Source of the DNA: Thioalkalivibrio nitratireducens
GTDB lineage: Bacteria; Pseudomonadota; Gammaproteobacteria; Ectothiorhodospirales; Ectothiorhodospiraceae
NCBI GenBank assembly: GCA_011390385.1
Contig: JAABSN010000114.1
Span: 1 to 10,555, forward strand
Length of the DNA stretch: 10,555 bases
Reading direction: 5' to 3'
The notes under the pieces were generated by a model that saw only the letters and a list, made by a program, of their open reading frames with translations, searched no databases and was not told the origin of the DNA. The translations under genes and the position numbers were made by a program. Numbering within the stretch: position 1 is the first letter of the stretch; each line of letters begins with the position of its first letter. This document shows positions 1 through 10,083 of the stretch, one piece after another.

Positions 1-39
1 ATCCAGGGGCGCACCATGGATGTGGATTACGCCCTGTAA
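1..39 (+). CDS. AlkB-like membrane monooxygenase, copy 1 (3' end only)
   Basis: Only the last 12 residues (IQGRTMDVDYAL) and the TAA stop fall in the window. They match, base for base, the end of the complete AlkB-like gene at 8759-10045, and the identity continues through the terminator behind it. This is therefore the tail of a second copy of the same integral-membrane di-iron monooxygenase, in the same orientation. How much of the rest is identical cannot be seen. Here the neighbours downstream are a truncated globin and a XylA-type reductase, which makes this copy the better candidate for the catalytic partner of those proteins. The assignment rests entirely on identity to the other copy. 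Confidence 0.85.
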   Translation: MQGRTMDVDYAL

Positions 40-51
40 TTCAGCAAACCA

Positions 52-77
52 GCGGACGGCGGTCGCACGCCGTCCGC
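52..77 (+). terminator. Hairpin terminator after AlkB copy 1
   Basis: A perfect 10-bp stem, GCGGACGGCG at 52-61 with CGCCGTCCGC at 68-77, closes a 6-nt loop, 12 bp after the stop codon. The downstream T-run is short (TTTT at 84-87), so termination may be partial and allow readthrough into the globin gene. The same hairpin follows the second AlkB copy at 10058-10083, and identity between the two regions stops at the last stem base. Confidence 0.75.
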
Positions 78-120
78 TCGGACTTTTCAGTAGCGTAAAT
101 AACACACGGAGAGAGAATTC

Positions 121-522
121 ATGAGCGCGAGCGAGCAATCAGTTCAGAGCGACATCGAAGCAGTGGAAGCCAGCCTTTACGAGCGCTTGGGAAGACGCCC
201 GGGTATCGAGGCGATCGTTGAGGATATATGGACAAACCATATCACCAACCCACTGGTCAAGAATCGTTATGCAGCCAGCGATCCCGCCGAGGTCAAGCGT
301 CTGGTGACCGAAATGTGCTGCGCCGGTTTCGGCGGGCCGGAATCCTATACAGGCCGCGACATGATCACGGCGCATACAGGGATGAATATCAATGACACCG
401 AGTTCGTCGCCGTATGTGACGATGTCTTGAAGGCATTGGATAAAAATAAAGTGGGCAAGCGCGAACGGGACGAAGTCTTGTGCATTCTGTACTCGCTCAA
501 GCCTGAGGTCGTATATCTCTAG
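121..522 (+). CDS. Group 1 truncated haemoglobin (trHb1/TrHbN-like)
   Basis: A 133-residue single-domain 2-on-2 globin. The N-terminal YERLGRRPGIEAIVEDI and the GFGGPESYTGRDM stretch are typical of bacterial group 1 truncated haemoglobins, and His85 in MITAHTGM is the expected proximal (F8) haem ligand. About 17 residues precede the globin fold. The ATG has a good ribosome site, GGAGAGAG at 108-115. By alignment from memory, the position usually held by Tyr B10 (family pattern FY) reads IW here, and two adjacent cysteines (MCCAG) lie in helix E; both would alter ligand chemistry. Members bind O2 and NO, and some act as NO dioxygenases. It sits 81 bp after AlkB copy 1 and 69 bp before an NAD(P)H reductase, so it may supply O2, remove NO, or take electrons from that reductase. 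The family is clear; the role is inferred. Confidence 0.9.
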   Translation: MSASEQSVQSDIEAVEASLYERLGRRPGIEAIVEDIWTNHITNPLVKNRYAASDPAEVKRLVTEMCCAGFGGPESYTGRDMITAHTGMNINDTEFVAVCDDVLKALDKNKVGKRERDEVLCILYSLKPEVVYL

Positions 523-591
523 AAAAAGAAGTAAAGACCTGAGCGGTTCTTGTCAACGTTTTTCCGGTCGTCAGTGTCAAGGATAAATATC

Positions 592-1665
592 ATGTTTGGA
601 TTATTTGCCCGCAAAGGACCATTCGATGCACACATCAAGTCTGCTGGAAAAGTGGTGACCGTTCAGGCTGGCGACAACCTGCTCAAGGCCGCATTGGCCG
701 CTGGTATCGCCTGGCCACACAGCTGCCGCGTAGGCAGCTGTGGCACTTGTCGCGCCCGATTGGTTGGAGGCAAGATCAAACCGCTGGTCGATTTCAGTTA
801 CACGCTGGACGATGCGGATCTGGATGCCGGGATGATTCTGGCGTGTCAGACCTGCCTGCGTAGCGACATCGAAGTGGACGTCGAGTTGGACGCGGATGCT
901 TTGGTAACCGCGGCAGCCGCCGAGGTATCCGGTGTGATTACGGGTTATCGCCATCTTACCCACGATATCGTCGAGTTGCAGTTGCAGCTTGACGAGCCGA
1001 TTCCCGGTTATCTCGCCGGGCAGTATGCCGAATTGATGGTATCCGGTGTTACGAAAGAGCCGCGTAACTACTCGTTTGCATGTGCGCCCGGGAACGACAG
1101 TCCCGGATCGGTCACGTTCTTTATTCGGCAAGTGCCGGGGGGGGTGCTGACCACCTGGCTGCATGAGCAGGACCGCAGCGGAACGCACGTCTCCCTGAAT
1201 GGACCTTTCGGTTCGTTTTATTTGCGCGAGTCAGAGGCACCTGTGCTATGTGTGGCCGGCGGTAGTGGCCTTGCCCCAATCAAGGCACTTCTCGAGCAAA
1301 TGGCCTCGACCATGTTTCAGCGCGAGGTGATATTCCTTTTCGGGGCCCGGACACAGGCGGATCTGTACTGCCTGGAAGAAATGAAGAACTACGAACGCCA
1401 GAGTGGAGGTCGTTTCCGCTTTCTGCCGGTACTGTCGGCGGAACCGGAGGACAGTGACTGGACCGGTGCCCGTGGCAATGTGACGGATCTGATTGCCAAG
1501 GAGGTCCCTGAGGTCGAACGTCATCACGCCTATCTCTGTGGTCCGCCACCGATGGTCGACGCGGCGATCATGGTTCTGAACAACGCCGGTGTGGATAGCC
1601 ACCATATTCACTACGACAAATTCCTTGATGCTTCCCATATGCCAGGTGGAAGAGATCAAGCCTAG
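592..1665 (+). CDS. 2Fe-2S/FAD/NAD(P)H oxidoreductase, XylA- or phenol-hydroxylase-reductase-like
   Basis: A 357-residue three-domain electron-transfer protein. Residues 1-95 are a plant-type 2Fe-2S ferredoxin with ligands Cys45, Cys50, Cys53 and Cys85 (CRVGSCGTC, then LACQTC). Residues about 105-210 are an FAD-binding barrel with the RNYS motif (158-161). Residues about 215-350 bind NAD(P)H, with GGSGLAP at 223-229 and CGPPPM from 316. The family moves electrons from NAD(P)H via FAD and 2Fe-2S to an oxygenase; XylA serves the AlkB-family enzyme XylM this way. The ATG at 592 is preferred over an upstream in-frame TTG at 550 because AAGGA lies 8 nt before it and the ferredoxin fold starts directly after. 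No rubredoxin is seen in this window, so this is the obvious candidate electron donor for the AlkB-like monooxygenase. The globin upstream is an alternative acceptor. Confidence 0.92.
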   Translation: MFGLFARKGPFDAHIKSAGKVVTVQAGDNLLKAALAAGIAWPHSCRVGSCGTCRARLVGGKIKPLVDFSYTLDDADLDAGMILACQTCLRSDIEVDVELDADALVTAAAAEVSGVITGYRHLTHDIVELQLQLDEPIPGYLAGQYAELMVSGVTKEPRNYSFACAPGNDSPGSVTFFIRQVPGGVLTTWLHEQDRSGTHVSLNGPFGSFYLRESEAPVLCVAGGSGLAPIKALLEQMASTMFQREVIFLFGARTQADLYCLEEMKNYERQSGGRFRFLPVLSAEPEDSDWTGARGNVTDLIAKEVPEVERHHAYLCGPPPMVDAAIMVLNNAGVDSHHIHYDKFLDASHMPGGRDQA

Positions 1666-1923
1666 ACTCCTGACCAACCCGTGGCAGCGAAGAAGTAAGG
1701 GCCGTTGCGATGGTTTCAGCTACGGATCTTCCGCAATGGTGGCTGTGTGCATCTTTTTCGCAGGAATTTTACGCCTCAACGCGGTTCACGCAGAAGCATT
1801 TTTTCACTCGGAATGAAATGTCGATGGACCGGTGTTTCTCGAGTACATTCTGCCGCCCGCCTGGGGTTCAACGACGATCGGGCGTCCATTGGGGATTCCG
1901 ATTCCACGACAGAGGAAAATGCA
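1666..1923 (+). other. Intergenic region, reductase to ferredoxin
   Basis: These 258 bp separate the reductase from the small ferredoxin. Overlapping short open frames run through it (one enters the ferredoxin frame, another crosses its start), but none has a convincing start site or recognisable protein motif. I see no strong hairpin terminator. It is long enough to hold a separate promoter for the ferredoxin gene, but no clear -35/-10 pair was identified. Confidence 0.5.
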
Positions 1924-2106
1924 ATGAAAGTAACTTGGGATAGTGAGAAATGCTGCCACAGCGGCAACTGTGTGAAGACGCTCCCAGAGGCGTTTTATAT
2001 CGAGAACGAGACGTTGGTAGTCAAGCCTGAGCGGGCCAGCGACGAGGCGGTTATGGGGGTTGTATCCGCTTGTCCGGGAAAGGCCTTCAGTGTAGTACGT
2101 GACTGA
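1924..2106 (+). CDS. Small divergent 4Fe-4S ferredoxin (Fer4_19-like)
   Basis: A 60-residue protein with the layout of the divergent mono-cluster 4Fe-4S family (Fer4_19): KCCHSGNCVKTLPEAF near the N-terminus and ACPGKAF near the C-terminus. Cysteines are at 10, 11, 16 and 50. Family members usually have CxHSxxC followed by CPSGAL; here the second residue is an additional Cys11, which could be a fourth cluster ligand. A longer open frame begins at 1705, but the ATG at 1924 is chosen because AGAGGA (1911-1916) lies 7 nt upstream and the domain starts at residue 1. The protein probably carries electrons in the cytoplasm. Its place after the reductase suggests, without proving, a link to the oxygenase system. 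Confidence 0.85.
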   Translation: MKVTWDSEKCCHSGNCVKTLPEAFYIENETLVVKPERASDEAVMGVVSACPGKAFSVVRD

Positions 2107-2537
2107 GCGTTTTTTCGACCGATTCCAATCCCGTCGGCGGGGCGTCACCGGTGCCCCGTCGTCCGATAACACCGTCCGATAACCGGGATCCTCTTGCGAT
2201 TCGTTCACTGAGCGATTACGAACCCTGCCTTTCCGGTATTTCGGGGTTGAGGCTGGCGGCGATGTGTCCCTGAATTCTGCTTGCGTGCCTCGGTGGGTGC
2301 CTGCAAATGCATTGGACCGACCTTTACACACTGACAGAGCTCGCGACCAGCAATGGAATCCCACATTTGGAGTGTGTTATCAATGGTTTTGATGCGGGTG
2401 ACAGAGTGCGACGCAAGTGATGCAGCGTGTGAAGCGGGCGCGTCTCGAGGCGGCTTTCACGGTGCTTGGGCGTCCCTGGCATGTCAGTTGCTTCGGCATT
2501 GGATATGAACGAGATATACGCGACAAGCAGGTCATGG
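2107..2537 (+). other. Long intergenic region upstream of the H4MPT genes
   Basis: About 430 bp between the ferredoxin stop and the preferred mptG start. A T6 run (2110-2115) follows the ferredoxin stop without an obvious hairpin before it. A GC-rich imperfect hairpin lies at 2138-2158 (CGGGGC paired with GCCCCG), without a T-tract. An 11-bp direct repeat follows at 2160-2183. One 37-codon open frame (2307-2420) resembles no family I know. The stretch probably holds the promoter of the mptG-mtdB group, but I cannot place it. Confidence 0.5.
2160..2183. repeat. 11-bp direct repeat pair, 13-bp spacing
   Basis: CGTCCGATAAC occurs at 2160-2170 and again at 2173-2183, separated by 2 bp, so the repeat starts are 13 bp apart. 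It lies just downstream of a GC-rich hairpin and upstream of mptG. It could be a pair of regulator half-sites or a small local duplication; nothing distinguishes these. Confidence 0.6.
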
Positions 2538-3536
2538 ATGGGGGTAACGGTGACTGCGCCGGCCCGGCTGCATCTCGGATTTCTTGACCTGAACGGCGGC
2601 CTCGGGCGGCGGTTCGGTAGTCTGGGCATCGCGATCGACACATTCCAGACTCGGGTCACTCTGACGCGCGGACCTTCACGGACCGTTGCAGAGAGGATGC
2701 ATCTGGCTTCAGCGGGTGCACAAAAGCGAGCGTGGGGCTACTTGTCACGTTTTACCGACGACATGGGGCTTTCGGGGGATTGGAATGTCCTGGTGGAGGA
2801 GGCGATTCCCGAACATTCCGGGATGGGTTCGGGAACGCAGATGTCGCTCGCGGTAGGTACTGCGCTGGCCCTTCTGGCCGGTCTTGCGCCTGATACACGA
2901 GAGTTGGCGGAAATATTTGACCGTGGAGCACGTTCAGGAGTCGGTATCGGCGCCTTCGACCATGGTGGATTTCTGATGGACAGTGGTCGGACGGAGGACA
3001 GCGGACCGCCCCCCTTGACGACCCGCCTCGATTTCCCGAGAGATTGGCGCGTGCTCCTGGTACTGGATCGGCACACTCGGGGTCTCCACGGTTCCCCGGA
3101 GGTCGAAGCTTTTCGACGGCTTCCGGTATTTCCCGAGGAGAAAGCGGCTCACTTGTGTCGCATCGCGTTGATGCAGGTGCTGCCCGCTCTGGTGGAACAG
3201 GACTTGCCTTCGTTCGGAAAAGGCATCGGTGAGATACAGCGTACGGTTGGCGACCATTTTGCGCCGGCGCAGGGAGGGCGTTTCACCAGTCCGGCCGTCG
3301 CACAAGCACTGAGTTGGGCGGAGTCCCTGGGTTTCGAAGGGGTTGGACAGAGCTCCTGGGGCCCCACCGGATTCATCCTGCTTCCCGATGAGGAATCTGC
3401 GGAACAGGTTCGTGTTCGTGCGGAGCGCCGGTTTGCCGATCACGCGTCGTTGCAATTCCGGACGGTGGCCGCCTGCAACCATGGCCATGAAGTATCGGAT
3501 GCCCCCATTCACGCCTCACTACGCACAGCCCACTGA
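2538..3536 (+). CDS. mptG: Beta-ribofuranosylaminobenzene 5'-phosphate synthase (beta-RFAP synthase)
   Basis: This GHMP-kinase-fold enzyme condenses PRPP with 4-aminobenzoate (4-hydroxybenzoate in some family members), releasing CO2 and pyrophosphate, the first committed step of methanopterin biosynthesis. With the ATG at 2538 the protein has 332 residues. It begins with the family's N-terminal strand APARLHLGFLDLNGG (residues 7-21). PEHSGMGSGTQ (91-101) matches the GHMP phosphate-binding loop, GVGIGAFDHGGF starts at 134, and the C-terminal GVGQSSWGPTGF starts at 268. The start is uncertain: in-frame ATGs also exist at 2481 and 2505 and a TTG at 2466. 2538 is preferred because homologues begin close to APARLHLGF and AGCAGG-like bases precede it. 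In bacteria the gene indicates the H4MPT-linked C1 pathway. mtdB follows 35 bp downstream. Confidence 0.93.
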   Translation: MGVTVTAPARLHLGFLDLNGGLGRRFGSLGIAIDTFQTRVTLTRGPSRTVAERMHLASAGAQKRAWGYLSRFTDDMGLSGDWNVLVEEAIPEHSGMGSGTQMSLAVGTALALLAGLAPDTRELAEIFDRGARSGVGIGAFDHGGFLMDSGRTEDSGPPPLTTRLDFPRDWRVLLVLDRHTRGLHGSPEVEAFRRLPVFPEEKAAHLCRIALMQVLPALVEQDLPSFGKGIGEIQRTVGDHFAPAQGGRFTSPAVAQALSWAESLGFEGVGQSSWGPTGFILLPDEESAEQVRVRAERRFADHASLQFRTVAACNHGHEVSDAPIHASLRTAH

Positions 3537-3571
3537 GCTCCTCATTTCCTTAACCTAGGCGACTTGATCAG

Positions 3572-4477
3572 ATGACCCGACCGACGATATTGCACATGGT
3601 GACCCCGGAAGCCAACCTGAGTCCCTTCGACGCAAACATGGCGATCGACGCAGGTTGGCAGCACTGCCTTTCCTACACCGGTCTGGAACGCAGCGCGATC
3701 GCCGGATTGACCCAGGACGCCATCTTTTCGCGCGGTCCCAAGGGAGTCCGTCGCACGGGTCTGTTCGTTGGTGGGCGCGATCAGAACACGGCCATGGACA
3801 TGCTGGAGGCGGCCCGTGCGGCGATGGTTCCCCCCTTTGAGATTTCAGTCTTTGCCGACCCCAGCGGCGCCTTTACGACTGCTGCCGGTATGATTGCCTG
3901 CGTCGAACGCGTTCTCAGGCGCAATCAGGACGATGGGCTGGCCGGCCGGCGGGTTCTGGTGTTTGGGGGGACCGGGCCGGTCGGAACGGTCTGCGCCACC
4001 CTTGCTGCTCAGGCTGGTGCAATGGTGAGCATTGTCAGCCATGAGGGGCTTGCGAAGGCGACGGCAGCTGCCGAGCAATGCAATGACCGGTTCGGCGTGC
4101 AGCTGCAGGGTGCGGACGGTTCCGACGATGCGCGGGTCAGTTCCCTGCTCGAGGGGGCAGAGATCGTTTTCAGTGCGGCCAAGGCGGGCGTCCAGGTCTT
4201 GAGGGCGGATCATCTGCGCGGAGCGCATCGGCTTCTTGTGGCCTGTGATGTGAACGCGGTGCCACCCGAAGGGATCGAGGGGGTCGGGGTGATGGCGGAC
4301 GGTGAGCCGCTGAGTGCGGGATCGGGCAAGGCACGCGGAATTGGCGCGCTGGCGGTTGGCAACGTCAAATACAAGGCGCAACAGGCGCTCCTGACACAAA
4401 TGCTCGAGACCGAGAAACCGGTTTACCTCGATTTCCAACACGCGCTGGAAGCTGCGCGTGCGCATACCAGATCATAA
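3572..4477 (+). CDS. mtdB: Methylene-tetrahydromethanopterin dehydrogenase
   Basis: A 301-residue cytoplasmic NAD(P)-dependent dehydrogenase that oxidises methylene-H4MPT to methenyl-H4MPT in formaldehyde oxidation. The N-terminal part (ILHMVTPEANLSPFDANMAIDAG) carries the family's substrate-domain signature. A Rossmann nucleotide loop, FGGTGPVG, lies at 131-138 after LAGRRVLV. The C-terminal KARGIGALAVGNVKYKAQ is also typical. It is slightly longer than the Methylobacterium enzyme of about 288 residues as I recall it. The ribosome site is weak (AGGCGA at 3557-3562), which suggests co-transcription with mptG. Its last 20 bases overlap the next gene. The mch and fae genes that often accompany mtdB are absent from this window. 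The alternative MtdA, which also uses tetrahydrofolate, is less likely in this context. Confidence 0.93.
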   Translation: MTRPTILHMVTPEANLSPFDANMAIDAGWQHCLSYTGLERSAIAGLTQDAIFSRGPKGVRRTGLFVGGRDQNTAMDMLEAARAAMVPPFEISVFADPSGAFTTAAGMIACVERVLRRNQDDGLAGRRVLVFGGTGPVGTVCATLAAQAGAMVSIVSHEGLAKATAAAEQCNDRFGVQLQGADGSDDARVSSLLEGAEIVFSAAKAGVQVLRADHLRGAHRLLVACDVNAVPPEGIEGVGVMADGEPLSAGSGKARGIGALAVGNVKYKAQQALLTQMLETEKPVYLDFQHALEAARAHTRS

Positions 4478-5579
4478 ACCGGCGCTGGTTCTGGCCGGGC
4501 ACAGCGTACGTTCCCTGGCACAGTCGGCGGCTGCAAGTGGGGTCCGCGCGATTGCGCTGGACCACTACGGCGATCTGGACACTCGCGCGGCCGCCCGGAA
4601 GGTGATCCAGGTCCGCGAATCCTGCGGGGAGACTCTGGAGCAGGTGTTGCTGGGCTCACGCGGAGAGCCGTTCGCGTCGGCAATGCTCGTGGCGGGTGCC
4701 GGGTTCGAGGGCAAGGGGGATGCTCTCCTGGCTCTGGCGAAACGGTTCCAACTGATGGGGAATACACCTGCTGTGTGGGAGCTGGTCGATGCGCCGGAGG
4801 CGTTCGCGGCACTATTGGACGGAATGGCCATCCCTCATCCTGAAACACAGATGAATCCTCCGGCGCGGTTGCAGGAATGGCTGTTCAAACGTCGTGCAAC
4901 CTGTGGCGGCATCGGAATCTACCCGGCAGCCGACGCCAGCGGAGCCGGCTCTTACCGGCGACGCGTCAGGGGCCGACCCGCGTCCGTGTTGTTTCTCGCC
5001 GACGGCCGCCGTGCCCGTATCCTGGGTTACCACTATCTGTTGACGCACCGACTACCAGGTCGGCCCTTTGCCTACGCGGGAGCGCTGGTGATGGATACCG
5101 TGCCGGCGTCCGTGGCAACGCGCGTTGAGCGGTGGGTCACCGGGCTTACCGCAACGTTGGGGCTGCGCGGTCTCAATGGCCTGGATTTCATGGAGCATGC
5201 AGGGCAGGCGTGTGTTCTGGAGTTGAATCCACGCCCCACCGCAACGGTGGAGCTGCACGAGCATCGACTCGTGGCAGGCGGTCTTCTCGCGCAGCACCTG
5301 CAGGCCTGCGGCGGCGAGATGCCGGAGGCCCTGCCACCCGTGACGCGCGTTCGGGGGCTTCTGATCCTGTTCTCCGACCGGGATTTGCGGATACCCCAAT
5401 TCGAGTGGCCGGACTGGAGTGCGGATCGGCCCGCCCCGGGCACGCTTGTTGGCGCGGGCGAGCCGGTCTGTTCCATACATGGGGAGGGTAGATCGATGCA
5501 GGACGTGCGGGTGTCGCTGGCACGTCGGTCGAGATGCCTCCGAGCACGACTGCTGTCGCGAGCACCGGCAGCAGCGTGA
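4458..5579 (+). CDS. ATP-grasp protein of the H4MPT gene cluster
   Basis: A 373-residue ATP-grasp-type ligase of unassigned substrate. After an N-terminal nucleotide-like domain (ALVLAGHSVRSLAQSAA), the central part has GGIGIYPA and the C-terminal core has GLNGLDFMEHAG followed by LELNPRPTATVELHE, where Glu255 and Asn257 fit the metal-binding ExN of ATP-grasp enzymes. Proteins of this type (I believe COG2232-like) recur beside H4MPT genes in methylotrophs and methanogens and are thought to act in cofactor synthesis, for example forming an amide with glutamate as MfnD does in methanofuran. That role is inference. The start is a GTG at 4458 inside the end of mtdB, with GGAAG at 4447-4451, so translation is probably coupled. 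The C-terminal 30 residues are Arg/Ala-rich with no recognised motif. Confidence 0.85.
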   Translation: MRIPDHKPALVLAGHSVRSLAQSAAASGVRAIALDHYGDLDTRAAARKVIQVRESCGETLEQVLLGSRGEPFASAMLVAGAGFEGKGDALLALAKRFQLMGNTPAVWELVDAPEAFAALLDGMAIPHPETQMNPPARLQEWLFKRRATCGGIGIYPAADASGAGSYRRRVRGRPASVLFLADGRRARILGYHYLLTHRLPGRPFAYAGALVMDTVPASVATRVERWVTGLTATLGLRGLNGLDFMEHAGQACVLELNPRPTATVELHEHRLVAGGLLAQHLQACGGEMPEALPPVTRVRGLLILFSDRDLRIPQFEWPDWSADRPAPGTLVGAGEPVCSIHGEGRSMQDVRVSLARRSRCLRARLLSRAPAAA

Positions 5580-5586
5580 GCTGACT

Positions 5587-6291
5587 TCAGCCCCGTTCCG
5601 CGAGGGCCGCCATTTCCGCACGGGTAATGCGCCCGTCGTGGAGAGATGTCGCCAGCAACACACCAGAAGCACCCTGCTCCTGCAAGGCAGCGAGATCCCG
5701 TGCGTCGCGTACCCCGCCCGCGACGAACCAGCGGATTGAAGGGCCGCGTCGAAGATGGTCGGCCAGCCGGGCCAGGTTCGGGCCTTGTGCACCGCCAACG
5801 CGGGAAATGTCCATCAATATCGTTTCCCGGGACCACAGCAAGGGTTGTCGCTGTAAAGCGATGGGCCCCACGAGTCCGTCCTTGGTGAAATCGAGCGAAA
5901 GTACGGTGCGGCCACGCAGGTCCGGATCGTTGGGCAGGGTCGGGTCGACAAGGCGCTCGCTGCCAATGATCGGCAGGACGCCCGGTATGGCCCACAGCGC
6001 AGCAAGGTCTTCGCGATGTTGAACACCCGCGTCGACCCATAAGGTCACGGTCGGCAGCGCTTCTGCCATCCGCTGAATCAGGTCCAGATGATGGCCGCGC
6101 TTCTCGATGCGGCCGAGGTCTGCGATATAAAGCCGATCAGCCCCGAACTCCTGCGTGTAGTACCTTGCGAGTGACAGCGCATCGCCATCCTTGCAACCTT
6201 TCGTCTGCAAGGGCCGATAGGCATGGCGTTGACCACCGCAGGCGTGTACCGCCTTTCCTGCCAGCAGATCGATGACCGGAATCGCTTTCAT
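5587..6291 (-). CDS. HisA-like protein of the H4MPT/methylotrophy set (COG1411-like)
   Basis: A 234-residue TIM-barrel protein related to HisA but probably not the histidine enzyme. MKAIPVIDLLAGKAVHACGG replaces the usual HisA start, with the Asp of the IDL motif retained. YIADLGRIE, LWVDAGV and FVAGGVRDARDL mark the barrel strands, the last being a phosphate-binding GG loop. Proteins of this group are restricted largely to organisms with methanopterin-type cofactors and are presumed to act in their biosynthesis; the reaction is not something I can state. It is convergent with the ATP-grasp gene, with only 7 bp between the stops, and lies 60 bp downstream of the DUF2182 gene on the same strand. 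A purine-rich AGGAGA lies about 13 nt before the ATG, somewhat far for a ribosome site. Confidence 0.85.
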   Translation of the reverse strand: MKAIPVIDLLAGKAVHACGGQRHAYRPLQTKGCKDGDALSLARYYTQEFGADRLYIADLGRIEKRGHHLDLIQRMAEALPTVTLWVDAGVQHREDLAALWAIPGVLPIIGSERLVDPTLPNDPDLRGRTVLSLDFTKDGLVGPIALQRQPLLWSRETILMDISRVGGAQGPNLARLADHLRRGPSIRWFVAGGVRDARDLAALQEQGASGVLLATSLHDGRITRAEMAALAERG

Positions 6292-6351: not shown

Positions 6352-7164
6352 CTACGACAAGTGCAGTATCACGAAATATCCACCCCATGCCACCAATCCA
6401 AGCCCGCTAATGATCCGCAGCAGTGCTGGTGCGGGCATCAGTTTCTCGATGACCACGAAGGCAGCGATCAGGATCACCCACAGTATATTCATTACGCCGA
6501 CAGCAAATAATACAAGCATCAACGCCCAGCAGCATCCGACGCAATAGACACCATGCCGAATACCCATAACCAGCGCCCCACCTTTTCCTTCCCGCCACTC
6601 GGTGATGAGAAAGCCCAACGGACTGCGACACGTATGGAGGCATGCATTCTTCAGTGGCGTCCATTGGTAGATGCCGGCCACGATCAACACTCCGCCGCTC
6701 ATCAGGTAGTTGCGGCTTTCCATCATGGGGCTCAGCAGGCTGGTTGTGTGCAGCAACCACTGGGCAGCGGTCGCCGCAACACTGAACGCCGTCCATGCTA
6801 TCAGGTAGCCGGCCAAGAACACGAAAGTGCTGGTATAGGGTTGCTTGCGCAGGCGGCGTTTTCGGCTGAGGGTGGCAAACATTGACACCATCGGCAACGC
6901 GGACGGGGTCATCATCGCCACCATCATGGTAGCCCACATGGCGAATAGCATCGTGAAGTCCCAGGCGCCCCAGGCCATCGACCCCATGGGCGGCATCCAC
7001 ATGCTTACCGTGTCCATGTTCGACATCGCCCATGCCATGTAGGCCATGTATGCCCAGCCGACGAGAGCGATGCCAACCAGTCCTCCTGCTACCACCAGAT
7101 ACTCCCGAGTGGAAAGAGGGGGCATCGGTTCCAACGTTGCGGTGCTTGAATAACCGTGCGGCAT
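6352..7164 (-). CDS. DUF2182 integral membrane protein, methionine-rich
   Basis: A 270-residue polytopic membrane protein of the DUF2182 family (described as predicted metal-binding). Hydrophobic segments lie near residues 23-45, 70-95, 110-135, 150-165 and two or three more between 205 and 265. Conserved family cysteines are visible in KNACLHTCRSPLGF and GVYCVGCCWALMLVL. The stretch from about residue 40 to 100 is very rich in Met (for example MWATMMVAMMTPSALPMVSM), consistent with copper binding, though this is inference. Family members are often paired with DUF1326 proteins, as here, where the DUF1326 gene is divergent 280 bp away. A second ATG at codon 14 is possible. It may be co-transcribed with the HisA-like gene behind it. 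The molecular function is unknown. Confidence 0.88.
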   Translation of the reverse strand: MPHGYSSTATLEPMPPLSTREYLVVAGGLVGIALVGWAYMAYMAWAMSNMDTVSMWMPPMGSMAWGAWDFTMLFAMWATMMVAMMTPSALPMVSMFATLSRKRRLRKQPYTSTFVFLAGYLIAWTAFSVAATAAQWLLHTTSLLSPMMESRNYLMSGGVLIVAGIYQWTPLKNACLHTCRSPLGFLITEWREGKGGALVMGIRHGVYCVGCCWALMLVLFAVGVMNILWVILIAAFVVIEKLMPAPALLRIISGLGLVAWGGYFVILHLS

Positions 7165-7444: not shown

Positions 7445-8200
7445 ATGGTCGGCAAGAGAGACAAGGATACCGAATCCTGGCAAGCCGAAACATCCGGGAG
7501 CCGCCGCCGGTTCCTGGGCATTGCTACGCTGGGCATGGGAGTCGGGGTAATCGGCTTCCCCAACATCTTCAAGGCGAGGGCAAATACCATGGCAACTGTA
7601 ACCGACTGGAAGCTCAAGGGTAACTATTTCGAGTCCTGTAACTGCGATCTGGTCTGTCCATGCATATTCCTGCGTCCACCCACCAAGGGATTCTGCGAGG
7701 CGTTCGTGGGCTGGCACGTGGACGAGGGACATATGGGCGACGTGAGTCTCGATAACCTCAATATCGCTGCCTGGCTGCATTCCCCGAGTAGTTTGACCGA
7801 TGGTGATTGGCGTCTGGCTCTGTATCTGGACGATCGCGCGGACGATGCACAGACCGCCGCTCTCTCAAAGATCTTTGGCGGAGAGGTGGGTGGTCATCCG
7901 GCTGTACTTGCGAGCCTGGTTGGCGAGTTGTTGGGGATCAAATCCGTGCCCATCGAGTACGAGGTGGAAGAGGGTGGTACACGCTACCTGAACATCCCCG
8001 GCATCGGCAGGAATGTGACGCATGCTCTGGAAGGCGAAGACGGCGGCAGGGTGATGGTGTCCAATCACCCGCTTGCGGTTTCCCCGAGTCATCCTTTGGA
8101 GATCTCGTATTCGGACAACGCCTATTACGACGACTATGGATTACAGTGGCGTCAGGATAACCGGGTCGGTCTGGCGGCAGCGTTCGAATACGCACCCTGA
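7445..8200 (+). CDS. DUF1326 protein with N-terminal Tat-type signal
   Basis: A 251-residue protein. The DUF1326 domain starts about residue 49 and carries the family's cysteine cluster, ESCNCDLVCPC (Cys65, 67, 71, 73), plus Cys84, possibly a metal site. Unusually, 48 residues precede it and form a convincing twin-arginine signal: SRRRFLG at 19-25, a hydrophobic stretch to residue 42, and ARA before Asn47 as a likely cleavage site. The ATG at 7445 has a near-ideal ribosome site, AGGAGG at 7431-7436. Most DUF1326 proteins I know begin at the equivalent of Met49 (7589), which here has a weaker GAGG upstream, so an additional cytosolic form is conceivable. The pairing with DUF2182 suggests a common, still unknown, membrane or metal-related role; export would place this protein in the periplasm. 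Function is unknown. Confidence 0.88.
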   Translation: MVGKRDKDTESWQAETSGSRRRFLGIATLGMGVGVIGFPNIFKARANTMATVTDWKLKGNYFESCNCDLVCPCIFLRPPTKGFCEAFVGWHVDEGHMGDVSLDNLNIAAWLHSPSSLTDGDWRLALYLDDRADDAQTAALSKIFGGEVGGHPAVLASLVGELLGIKSVPIEYEVEEGGTRYLNIPGIGRNVTHALEGEDGGRVMVSNHPLAVSPSHPLEISYSDNAYYDDYGLQWRQDNRVGLAAAFEYAP

Positions 8201-8758: not shown

Positions 8759-10045
8759 ATGCGCAGATTGATATTGGGTCACTTGGTTTATTTGTGGACG
8801 CCGCTGGGTTTGTTGGCGGCGCTGGCAGGGGTTCTGGCCGGGGGTCACTGGGTTTGGGTCGGGATGTCGGTCTTTACCCTGAACATCATTTTGGACACGG
8901 TGACGCGGAACATTCATACGCGGGGAGCGGCGACGACGAAGAAGGGCGAGGCAGCGGGGCTGGGTTTTTTGCATAACCTGGTGATGTATCTGATGTTGCC
9001 GGTGTTTGTTGGTTTGTTGGTGGCGCTGGCGTGGCGGGTGTTTCAGTACACGGCGGGGGTTCCGGTCGAGACGCAGACGTTTTCGGCGTTTGGCTGGAGT
9101 TTTCAGTACACCAACGGGATTACCGGCGCGGAGTTGATTGTGGCGACGATTTCCGTGGCTCTGCATCAGGGTCTTGGGATTATCTACGGGCATGAGTTGT
9201 CGCACACCAAGGGTCCGAGTTTCCTGATTTCGCGCTGGATGATGGCGCTTTCGGGGGCGGCGCATTTCTGTTTTGCGCATGTGTACAACCACCATCTGGA
9301 GCTGGGCCGTGCGTGGATGGGGCCGGAAGGCAACAAGATGGGTGATGACGTGGACCCGGCCACGGCGCCGCGGGGACGCAGCATTTACACGCACTTTCTG
9401 GTGTCGCATATCGGGCAGTCCTATTTCGGGATCATGACCGAGCGCAAGCGCCTGAAGCGCCAGGGCAAGTCGTTCTTTTCGCTGTCCAACCGCTGGATTC
9501 GCGGGTATCTGATGAGTGTGCCGGTGATCGTGCTGTTTGCCGGTGCGGGCTACCTGGGTGCGGGTATTGAAGGGATGTGGATCGGGCTGGCTGCGATGCT
9601 GGTGGTGTGGATCATTTCCAACTTCGAGCTGGAGGCGCTCAATTACATGGAGCACTACGGGCTGATTCGGGTGAAGGGTGAGCCGATCGAGTACCGCCAT
9701 TCCTGGGACAACGACGGTGCGTTCACCAGCTGGGCGTTCATTGAGATTGGGCGTCAGGCGGACCATCACGACCGGGGTGAGACGCACTACTGGGAGTTGT
9801 CGAGTGTGGGGGGTGCGCCCCAGGGAGCGCCGAACACTGGTTTCGGGTATTACACGGAGTTTGTGCTGGCCCTGGTGCCGCCGCTGTGGCATCGCATCAT
9901 GAAGCGGAAGCTGGCGATCTGGGACCGGGACTTTGCCAGCCCCGAGGAGCAGAAGATCGCGCGGGAGATCAACCGCAAGGTGGGGTATGACGTGGATCCC
10001 TCGGCGATCCAGGGGCGCACCATGGATGTGGATTACGCCCTGTAA
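8759..10045 (+). CDS. AlkB-family membrane di-iron monooxygenase (variant third histidine box)
   Basis: A 428-residue integral membrane hydroxylase of the AlkB/XylM/fatty-acid-desaturase superfamily. Hydrophobic segments include residues about 5-30, 32-48, 72-95, 125-145, 255-275 and 280-295. Metal-ligand motifs in order are HELSHT (145-150), HVYNHH (174-179), NYMEHYGL (295-302) and RQADHH (332-337). Compared with AlkB boxes HELxHK, EHNxGHH, NYxEHYGL and LQRHSDHH, eight of nine ligand histidines are kept, but the first His of the third box is Gln333. HSW (from 314) and the VPPLWHRIM near the C-terminus also fit AlkB. Such enzymes insert oxygen into alkane, methyl or ether C-H bonds using electrons from a rubredoxin or a XylA-type reductase. 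Here the reductase lies beside the other copy. Codons end in G much more often than in the neighbouring H4MPT genes. The substrate is unknown; a C1-releasing methyl or methoxy substrate is an inference from context. Confidence 0.9.
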   Translation: MRRLILGHLVYLWTPLGLLAALAGVLAGGHWVWVGMSVFTLNIILDTVTRNIHTRGAATTKKGEAAGLGFLHNLVMYLMLPVFVGLLVALAWRVFQYTAGVPVETQTFSAFGWSFQYTNGITGAELIVATISVALHQGLGIIYGHELSHTKGPSFLISRWMMALSGAAHFCFAHVYNHHLELGRAWMGPEGNKMGDDVDPATAPRGRSIYTHFLVSHIGQSYFGIMTERKRLKRQGKSFFSLSNRWIRGYLMSVPVIVLFAGAGYLGAGIEGMWIGLAAMLVVWIISNFELEALNYMEHYGLIRVKGEPIEYRHSWDNDGAFTSWAFIEIGRQADHHDRGETHYWELSSVGGAPQGAPNTGFGYYTEFVLALVPPLWHRIMKRKLAIWDRDFASPEEQKIAREINRKVGYDVDPSAIQGRTMDVDYAL

Positions 10046-10057
10046 TTCAGCAAACCA

Positions 10058-10083
10058 GCGGACGGCGGTCGCACGCCGTCCGC
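10058..10083 (+). terminator. Hairpin terminator after AlkB copy 2
   Basis: The same 10-bp perfect stem and GTCGCA loop as at 52-77, 12 bp after the stop. It is followed by CTCATTT, a poor T-tract. Identity with the first copy runs from 10007 to 10083 (77 of 77 bases visible) and ends exactly at the stem's last base. Confidence 0.75.

Follow-up and report, generated by a model that had tools for sequence, protein, structure and literature searches.

What does an AlkB-type membrane enzyme do beside genes for tetrahydromethanopterin (H4MPT)-dependent formaldehyde oxidation? The question is raised by a 10,555-nt contig of Thioalkalivibrio nitratireducens (JAABSN010000114.1, the whole of which is called the window here), in which genes for a truncated globin, a XylA-type reductase and a small ferredoxin are followed by mptG, mtdB and an ATP-grasp gene of the bacterial H4MPT C1 pathway, and which also carries a complete AlkB-type gene (Table 1). 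On balance, our data favour the AlkB-type protein as the oxygenase of a membrane monooxygenase that attacks a methylated sulfide, most likely dimethyl sulfide (DMS). A wider proposal is made more tentatively, at somewhat less than even confidence: the protein may represent a widespread di-iron family, with glutamine (Gln) substituted at its substrate-side iron site, that is the missing DMS monooxygenase of Thiobacillus, Methylophaga, Hyphomicrobium relatives and many uncultured marine Gammaproteobacteria, whose dedicated partners are a globin and a XylA-type reductase and whose genes are packaged with those for methanethiol oxidase (MtoX) and H4MPT-dependent formaldehyde oxidation. The argument is built on gene content, conservation, co-occurrence, linkage, a predicted fold and the Gln, and from these we infer the substrate, the products, the electron route and the role of the globin.

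A reading of the sequence alone had proposed a monooxygenase that releases formaldehyde from a methylated compound, with methoxy oxidation by MdpA as a precedent. The tie to methanethiol oxidase is the stronger one and favours methylated sulfides over methoxy compounds. A scan of genome contigs gave 152 relatives; of the best 80 loci, 50, in 48 genomes, were used for co-occurrence; the nearest 17 loci (L001–L016 and L073) have at least 66% identity. SBP56 (PF05694), the family of MtoX, is present in 39 of the 48 clade genomes (38 above the curated cut-off) and in 1 of 14 in a control set. All 17 nearest genomes have it, each with at least one copy in the lower score class of confirmed MtoX. 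Ten chosen SBP56 proteins were compared with the NCBIfam MtoX equivalog, whose cut-off is 650: eight pass (683–772 bits), one partial translation reaches 646.7 and one, from L015, scores 117.5. The SBP56 of Methylophaga thiooxydans also passes. The low-scoring gene lies directly after the reductase in a Granulosicoccaceae metagenome-assembled genome (MAG; L015:3692-5101) and, at 117.5 against 650, is not MtoX.

The same association is seen inside three taxa. In the genus of M. sulfidovorans (Methylophaga, 24 genomes), the AlkB gene occurs in two genomes and SBP56 in the same two. Nine of the 117 genomes in the Thiobacillus thioparus family carry AlkB, and all nine are among the 12 with full-length SBP56; any SBP56 match is found in 16 genomes, 13 of them above the cut-off. 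In the family of Hyphomicrobium zavarzinii (103 genomes), the four genomes with AlkB all have MtoX-type SBP56, the MtoX score class being present in 11 genomes (two fragments left out) and any SBP56 in 30. The co-occurrence probabilities, all too small because kinship between genomes inflates their significance, are 1 in 276 for the genus, 2.7e-11 (12 full-length) or 1.4e-9 (16 with any match) for the T. thioparus family, and 7.5e-5 (11 of MtoX class) or 0.006 (30) for the H. zavarzinii family. Across the three taxa AlkB is never found without SBP56 (0 of 15 genomes), while MtoX-type SBP56 occurs without AlkB in three genomes of the T. thioparus family and seven of the H. zavarzinii family, and this is the pattern expected of an upstream step. 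The genes are also physically close. Among 42 genomes with both, the two genes share a contig in 24 and are no more than 25 kb apart in 21, where random placement would give about 1.5; in one of the 21 (G015) the SBP56 is of the non-MtoX kind. In T. thioparus DSM 505 (L012, G012), AlkB lies 23 kb from an SBP56 that passes the MtoX cut-off. Another locus of this family, L013 (G013), is labelled 'Rhizobium sp.' and is probably a misnamed MAG.

The proposed connection to H4MPT-dependent formaldehyde oxidation holds in part. Mpt_N, the domain of the mtdB product, is present in 35 of the 48 clade genomes and in 15 of the nearest 17. The distance between Mpt_N and AlkB is no more than 25 kb in 9 of 35 genomes, and Mpt_N and SBP56 are this close in 10 of 33. 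In addition, the gene for formaldehyde-activating enzyme (fae) stands between mtoX and AlkB in a Thiobacillus, in favour of DMS as the substrate. The connection is incomplete in that 13 of the 48 genomes, including two of the nearest 17 (G008 and G015), have no Mpt_N. At the junction seen in the window it finds no parallel: in none of 20 mapped stretches does mptG directly follow the ferredoxin gene, and this junction may be local.

The gene order around AlkB goes beyond chance. In all 17 nearest loci, AlkB directly precedes the globin, with globin and reductase within 5 kb behind it, and the order mptG-mtdB-ATP-grasp is kept in nine of ten fetched stretches with mtdB, the tenth running off the stretch end there. 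A HisA/HisF homologue lies near mtdB in four fetched stretches; the ferredoxin is found just downstream in 1 of the 17 loci, with homologues elsewhere in several islands. Genes that recur anywhere in the nearest loci encode a Nif11-like protein (14/17), an unknown 100-aa protein (15/17), an acyl-CoA-dehydrogenase-like flavoprotein (16/17), a PAS/GAF sensor kinase (16/17) and a LuxR-type response regulator (15/17). At L003:4827-6702 the first three, the 100-aa protein having no Pfam match, stand near kinase, regulator and AlkB, as in most nearest loci.

The island of Thiobacillus sp. 65-1402, about 29 kb long, brings these parts together. It begins with mtoX, c146 (258 aa, no NCBIfam match), MauG, fae and ferredoxin, continues through Nif11-like, unknown, flavoprotein, kinase, regulator, AlkB, globin and reductase genes, and ends with LbpA-like, Lpd, OsmC, a second regulator and kinase, mptG, mtdB and ATP-grasp. 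MtoX gene clusters, with their MauG-type maturation genes and fae, lie in the same islands in relatives. MtoX itself acts on methanethiol, and the excerpts of PMC6548844 leave the preceding step in M. thiooxydans without an assigned enzyme. According to an excerpt of PMC6067878, an lbpA deletion strain of Hyphomicrobium denitrificans does not grow on DMS; the LbpA-like neighbours seen here share the GCV_H domain and may be of that type. In a Methylophaga locus (L061:3616-6514), genes for a CbbQ/NorQ-type AAA ATPase and a VWA protein diverge from AlkB; such pairs often insert metal cofactors.

The protein itself is set apart by one residue. The window protein is predicted to adopt the AlkB fold, with 21–26% identity to the structures 8f6t and 8sbb. 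Eight of the nine histidine iron ligands of AlkB are conserved in the clade, and the ninth, the first His of the FtAlkB motif RHSDHH, is replaced by Gln (Q333) in 320 of 320 clade sequences examined, with His in five of five outgroups. By spacing, this position corresponds to the Fe2 ligand His311 of Fontimonas thermophila AlkB. In our tree the protein falls in a clade of its own, apart from the one XylM included, with the putative MdpA on a separate branch; its XylM-type matches show 27.5–29.7% identity, and all 52 plasmid records with a match are below 60% identity. Three Gln-type AlkB paralogues occur together in each of three uncultured Gammaproteobacteria genomes (G020, G027, G033). In Parasulfuritortus cantonensis (L073:10001-11277) AlkB is divided over two reading frames, by a split gene or a sequencing error. 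Ahead of the HYG motif, the loci of SAR86, OCS116, Kangiella and MED-G09 (L071, L074, L079, L080) carry Gly in place of Glu, and their genomes yielded no SBP56; these distant members possibly have another function.

These features bear on whether the protein might be an ordinary alkane or xylene hydroxylase that lies beside H4MPT genes by chance. Its distant identity to AlkB and XylM and the XylM/XylA-like pairing would fit such an enzyme. The invariant Q333 does not, nor does the lack of a rubredoxin among the ten window proteins (the genome may encode one elsewhere), nor the distribution of the clade, which few genomes of the host families carry and there always with SBP56. We regard this explanation as very improbable. 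An ordinary alkane hydroxylase in particular was rejected, because both the partner, a XylA-type reductase, and the ligand, Gln, differ.

A comparison of M. thiooxydans on DMS and methanol provides an expression lead toward DMS. According to the excerpted text of PMC6548844, expression on DMS was increased for both MtoX and highly so for a 'fatty acid desaturase' (MDMS009_226); a porin (MDMS009_906) was also up, as was an NAD(P)H flavin reductase (MDMS009_61). The figure legend there places the extended mtoX MDMS009_211 at 256503:257906 of scaffold 1104571000268. One of our genomes, G071, has an MtoX open reading frame at exactly these coordinates (C25:256503-257906) and is therefore taken as M. 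thiooxydans. Its AlkB-clade gene (C25:247669-248847) lies 7.8 kb from mtoX and is followed by genes for a globin, a ferredoxin, a glutathione S-transferase, a reductase and a TodX-like porin; the genome has only one other PF00487 gene, on another contig (C9). MDMS009_226 is probably this AlkB-clade gene, since its tag is near those of the mto cluster (211, 140). The porin MDMS009_906, described in the same excerpts as a membrane protein and fatty acid transport porin, has a tag near the other mto cluster (768, 894), and we do not claim it as the neighbouring porin. The AlkB gene run of M. thiooxydans closes with another globin-family gene, whose start is leader-like (L084:3098-3589).

The authors of that comparison, as excerpted, suggested lipid maintenance for MDMS009_226. 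The enzyme would then desaturate or hydroxylate fatty acids and in this way mend lipids damaged by hydrogen peroxide from MtoX. Membership of PF00487 agrees with this, as does the increase on DMS of catalase alongside MDMS009_226 (PMC6548844, in part). We consider lipid repair improbable; a lipid desaturase was rejected on the fold, which is predicted to be that of AlkB. For the step before methanethiol, the excerpts of PMC6548844 describe the first DMS enzyme as missing and allow for an unrecognised hydrolase or monooxygenase.

Several observations weigh against a DMS monooxygenase. The MDMS009 tags do not strictly follow the order of the genes, the assignment of MDMS009_226 goes by tag and not by sequence, and MDMS009_61 may be either the neighbouring reductase or another FAD_binding_6 protein encoded on the same contig. 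According to work cited in the excerpts of PMC6548844, M. thiooxydans grown on DMS showed no detectable DMS monooxygenase activity, a methyltransferase being suggested; the enzyme could be a labile membrane protein, or the hypothesis could be wrong. The same excerpts report growth of M. aminisulfidivorans on DMS without mtoX, and the clade is found in only 2 of 24 genomes of the Methylophaga genus. The histidine replaced in the clade has been called invariant and indispensable in another AlkB. No SBP56 was found in 9 of the 48 wider-clade genomes, among them the SAR86, OCS116, Kangiella and MED-G09 loci, and one genome that does have SBP56 (G038) carries it in the non-MtoX score class only. 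In another of the nine, Candidatus Thiothrix singaporensis (L022), titled a complete genome, neither SBP56 nor Mpt_N was found, while globin and reductase are kept beside AlkB. Of the 11 MtoX-type genomes in the H. zavarzinii family, seven lack AlkB, and the window, only 10.5 kb long, contains no mtoX. Among 50 more distant loci with at least 4 kb downstream, the globin is present in 7 and the reductase in 13, so that the expectation of a reductase nearby fails for much of the wider clade, and many of these loci adjoin housekeeping-type genes (TatD, FabA, MerR). The substrate claim is therefore weaker for that branch. At L022:9989-14396 of the Thiothrix genome, AlkB, globin and reductase are followed by a Cys/Met-metabolism pyridoxal phosphate enzyme and an alpha/beta hydrolase; enzymes of these types could incorporate methanethiol as part of methionine synthesis.

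Some of these points would suit an enzyme of the same kind with another small methylated substrate, such as dimethyl disulfide, dimethyl sulfoxide, dimethyl sulfone, methylamines or methyl ethers, for which the nearby MtoX would handle methanethiol or sulfide formed later. Co-occurrence gives membership in a pathway and not a substrate, the lifestyles of the hosts differ, SBP56 was not found in nine clade genomes, and MdpA, a relative of AlkB, is known to oxidise a methoxy group. On the other side, methanethiol and formaldehyde are the most economical pair of products that would feed both MtoX and the H4MPT pathway, and the transcriptome contrast was between DMS and methanol (PMC6548844, in part). 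Another substrate is thus unlikely in our judgement, while it deserves real weight.

With DMS as the preferred substrate, a pathway can be proposed. NAD(P)H would donate electrons to the XylA-like reductase, and from there, perhaps with help from the ferredoxin, they would reach the membrane di-iron site, where O2 would be activated. Hydroxylation of one methyl group of DMS would give an unstable S-CH2OH intermediate that breaks down to formaldehyde and methanethiol. MtoX, encoded nearby in many relatives, would convert methanethiol to a second formaldehyde and sulfide or sulfane sulfur. The formaldehyde would be oxidised by the H4MPT enzymes, some of them encoded downstream in the window, and the sulfur taken by the sulfur oxidation machinery of the host. 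The globin would probably supply or buffer O2 or protect the site. A 1993 study of T. thioparus T5 reportedly found an O2-dependent attack on a methyl group of DMS that was blocked by methyl butyl ether and gave transient formaldehyde.

Among known systems, XylM/XylA of pWW0 likewise joins an AlkB-superfamily oxygenase to a [2Fe-2S]-FAD reductase, the reductases being 41% identical over 344 columns. In contrast to the clade, XylM has His at the Gln position, and its substrate is aromatic; we know of no link of XylM/XylA to globin or H4MPT genes. AlkB of F. thermophila (8f6t, 8sbb) receives electrons from rubredoxin, unlike the enzyme proposed here with its XylA-type reductase. MdpA, the methyl tert-butyl ether monooxygenase of Methylibium petroleiphilum PM1, is of the AlkB family and attacks a methyl group next to a heteroatom. 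The presumed MdpA, a PM1 plasmid protein, carries the canonical His, and two rubredoxin genes are no more than 3 kb from its gene. Of the two precedents invoked by the sequence-only reading, XylM/XylA therefore fits the reductase pairing better than MdpA; XylM and the presumed MdpA both keep the histidine that the clade lacks. DmoA of Hyphomicrobium sulfonivorans, a soluble flavin-dependent enzyme, converts DMS to methanethiol, the reaction that is proposed for the window enzyme. No flavin-dependent luciferase-like (DmoA-type) domain was found among the ten window proteins, and the excerpts of PMC6548844 report DmoA homologues as absent from the six Methylophaga genomes compared. No AlkB-type DMS enzyme is named in the Creative Commons-licensed PubMed Central papers searched, preprints excluded, and one may have been published elsewhere. 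In the same literature no description was found of the clade with its Gln iron-ligand site, its globin and its tie to MtoX and H4MPT; the fold and the XylM/XylA-like pairing are already known.

Table 1. Genes and repeats of the 10,555-nt window (scores in bits; cut-offs are those of the profiles)
Feature	Position	Strand	Evidence
First copy of exact 77-bp direct repeat, at contig start	1..77	.	
AlkB-type gene 3' end, 12 codons and stop, upstream of globin	1..39	+	identical to end of 8759-10045 copy
Truncated (bacterial-like) globin	121..522	+	PF01152 40.8, cut-off 21
XylA/BenC-type [2Fe-2S]-FAD-NAD reductase	592..1665	+	PF00111 Fer2 59.3, PF00970 FAD_binding_6 40.4, PF00175 NAD_binding_1 84.1, each above cut-off
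Small Fer4_19 ferredoxin	1924..2106	+	PF06902 42.5, cut-off 24
mptG, beta-RFAP (beta-ribofuranosylaminobenzene 5'-phosphate) synthase of H4MPT biosynthesis; start codon uncertain	2466..3536	+	TIGR00144 157.8, cut-off 113.5
mtdB, methylene-H4MPT dehydrogenase	3572..4477	+	PF09176 Mpt_N 117.9, cut-off 27
ATP-grasp enzyme of H4MPT cluster	4458..5579	+	PF02655 ATP-grasp_3 53.6, cut-off 23.2
HisA/HisF-related protein, H4MPT-gene neighbour	5587..6291	-	PF00977 89.4; TIGR00734 102.3, under cut-off 179.85
DUF2182 (PpoB2, 'copper chaperone')	6352..7164	-	
DUF1326	7445..8200	+	
Complete AlkB-type membrane di-iron monooxygenase, Gln at one His-ligand position	8759..10045	+	
Second copy of exact 77-bp direct repeat	10007..10083	.	

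The window itself agrees with the sequence-only reading for the genes from globin to ATP-grasp, which share the + strand and whose identities are borne out by profile scores above the cut-offs. Under the stricter equivalog NF040726, the mptG product scores 186.0 against a cut-off of 328. The AlkB gene placed in the first 5,579 bases is present there only as its last 39, the complete gene lying outside, and the block does not end at 5579, as the HisA/HisF-like gene continues it on the other strand. The nearest named relatives of the mtdB product are from Thioalkalivibrio (82 and 76% identity), with unnamed ones up to 98%, so that the DNA probably comes from a sulfur-oxidising gammaproteobacterium not yet in culture. 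Among the ten window proteins covered by the profile scan, fae, mch and fhcABCD were not found. An Rfam scan at gathering thresholds gave no matches, and a PHROGs comparison of four proteins matched only the ferredoxin domain of the reductase. The gaps of about 260 bases between reductase and ferredoxin and about 360 between ferredoxin and mptG, together with the few promoter- and terminator-like sites, leave a single operon from globin to ATP-grasp unsupported; sigma-70 promoter-like sites (1, against 4.6 in shuffles) and terminator-like sites (4, against 8.1) are both rarer than in shuffled sequence. The DUF2182 and DUF1326 genes, which lie past the H4MPT genes and ahead of the complete AlkB gene, recur in none of the 20 mapped stretches; MtoX is a copper enzyme, so that a copper link is conceivable.

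The two repeat copies match exactly, and the sequences diverge from base 78. A repeat of exactly 77 bases at the contig start looks like a graph branch of a de Bruijn assembler with k = 77, and AlkB upstream of the globin is therefore implied and not read. From one AlkB 3' end the sequence continues along two or more paths, which may reflect gene duplication, strain variants or an assembly branch. The repeat at the contig start, and the absence of the ferredoxin-mptG junction from the mapped stretches, might also suggest that an assembly error has joined AlkB-globin-reductase to unrelated H4MPT genes. We give this very little probability: the repeat is not near the internal junctions, and AlkB and Mpt_N are at most 25 kb apart in the nine relatives' genomes noted above.

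If the assignment to DMS is correct, it would bear on the first step of DMS breakdown. The portions seen of PMC6548844 and PMC4611497 describe the enzyme that starts on DMS as not yet identified, the former for M. thiooxydans and the latter for Thiobacillus and Methylophilaceae populations of soil and lake. A June 2026 review, as excerpted, names DmoA for DMS to methanethiol and DmoA, DdhA, DsoB and Tmm for DMS consumption (PMC13360808), and surveys of DMS oxidation have used markers such as ddh, dmoA and mtoX (PMC9563715, in part). The Gln at an iron-ligand position of AlkB is a mechanistic puzzle by itself. A candidate gene in a cultured strain, open to knockout, would make the question of the first DMS enzyme testable, and the AlkB-clade gene may serve as a marker for surveys of DMS oxidation.

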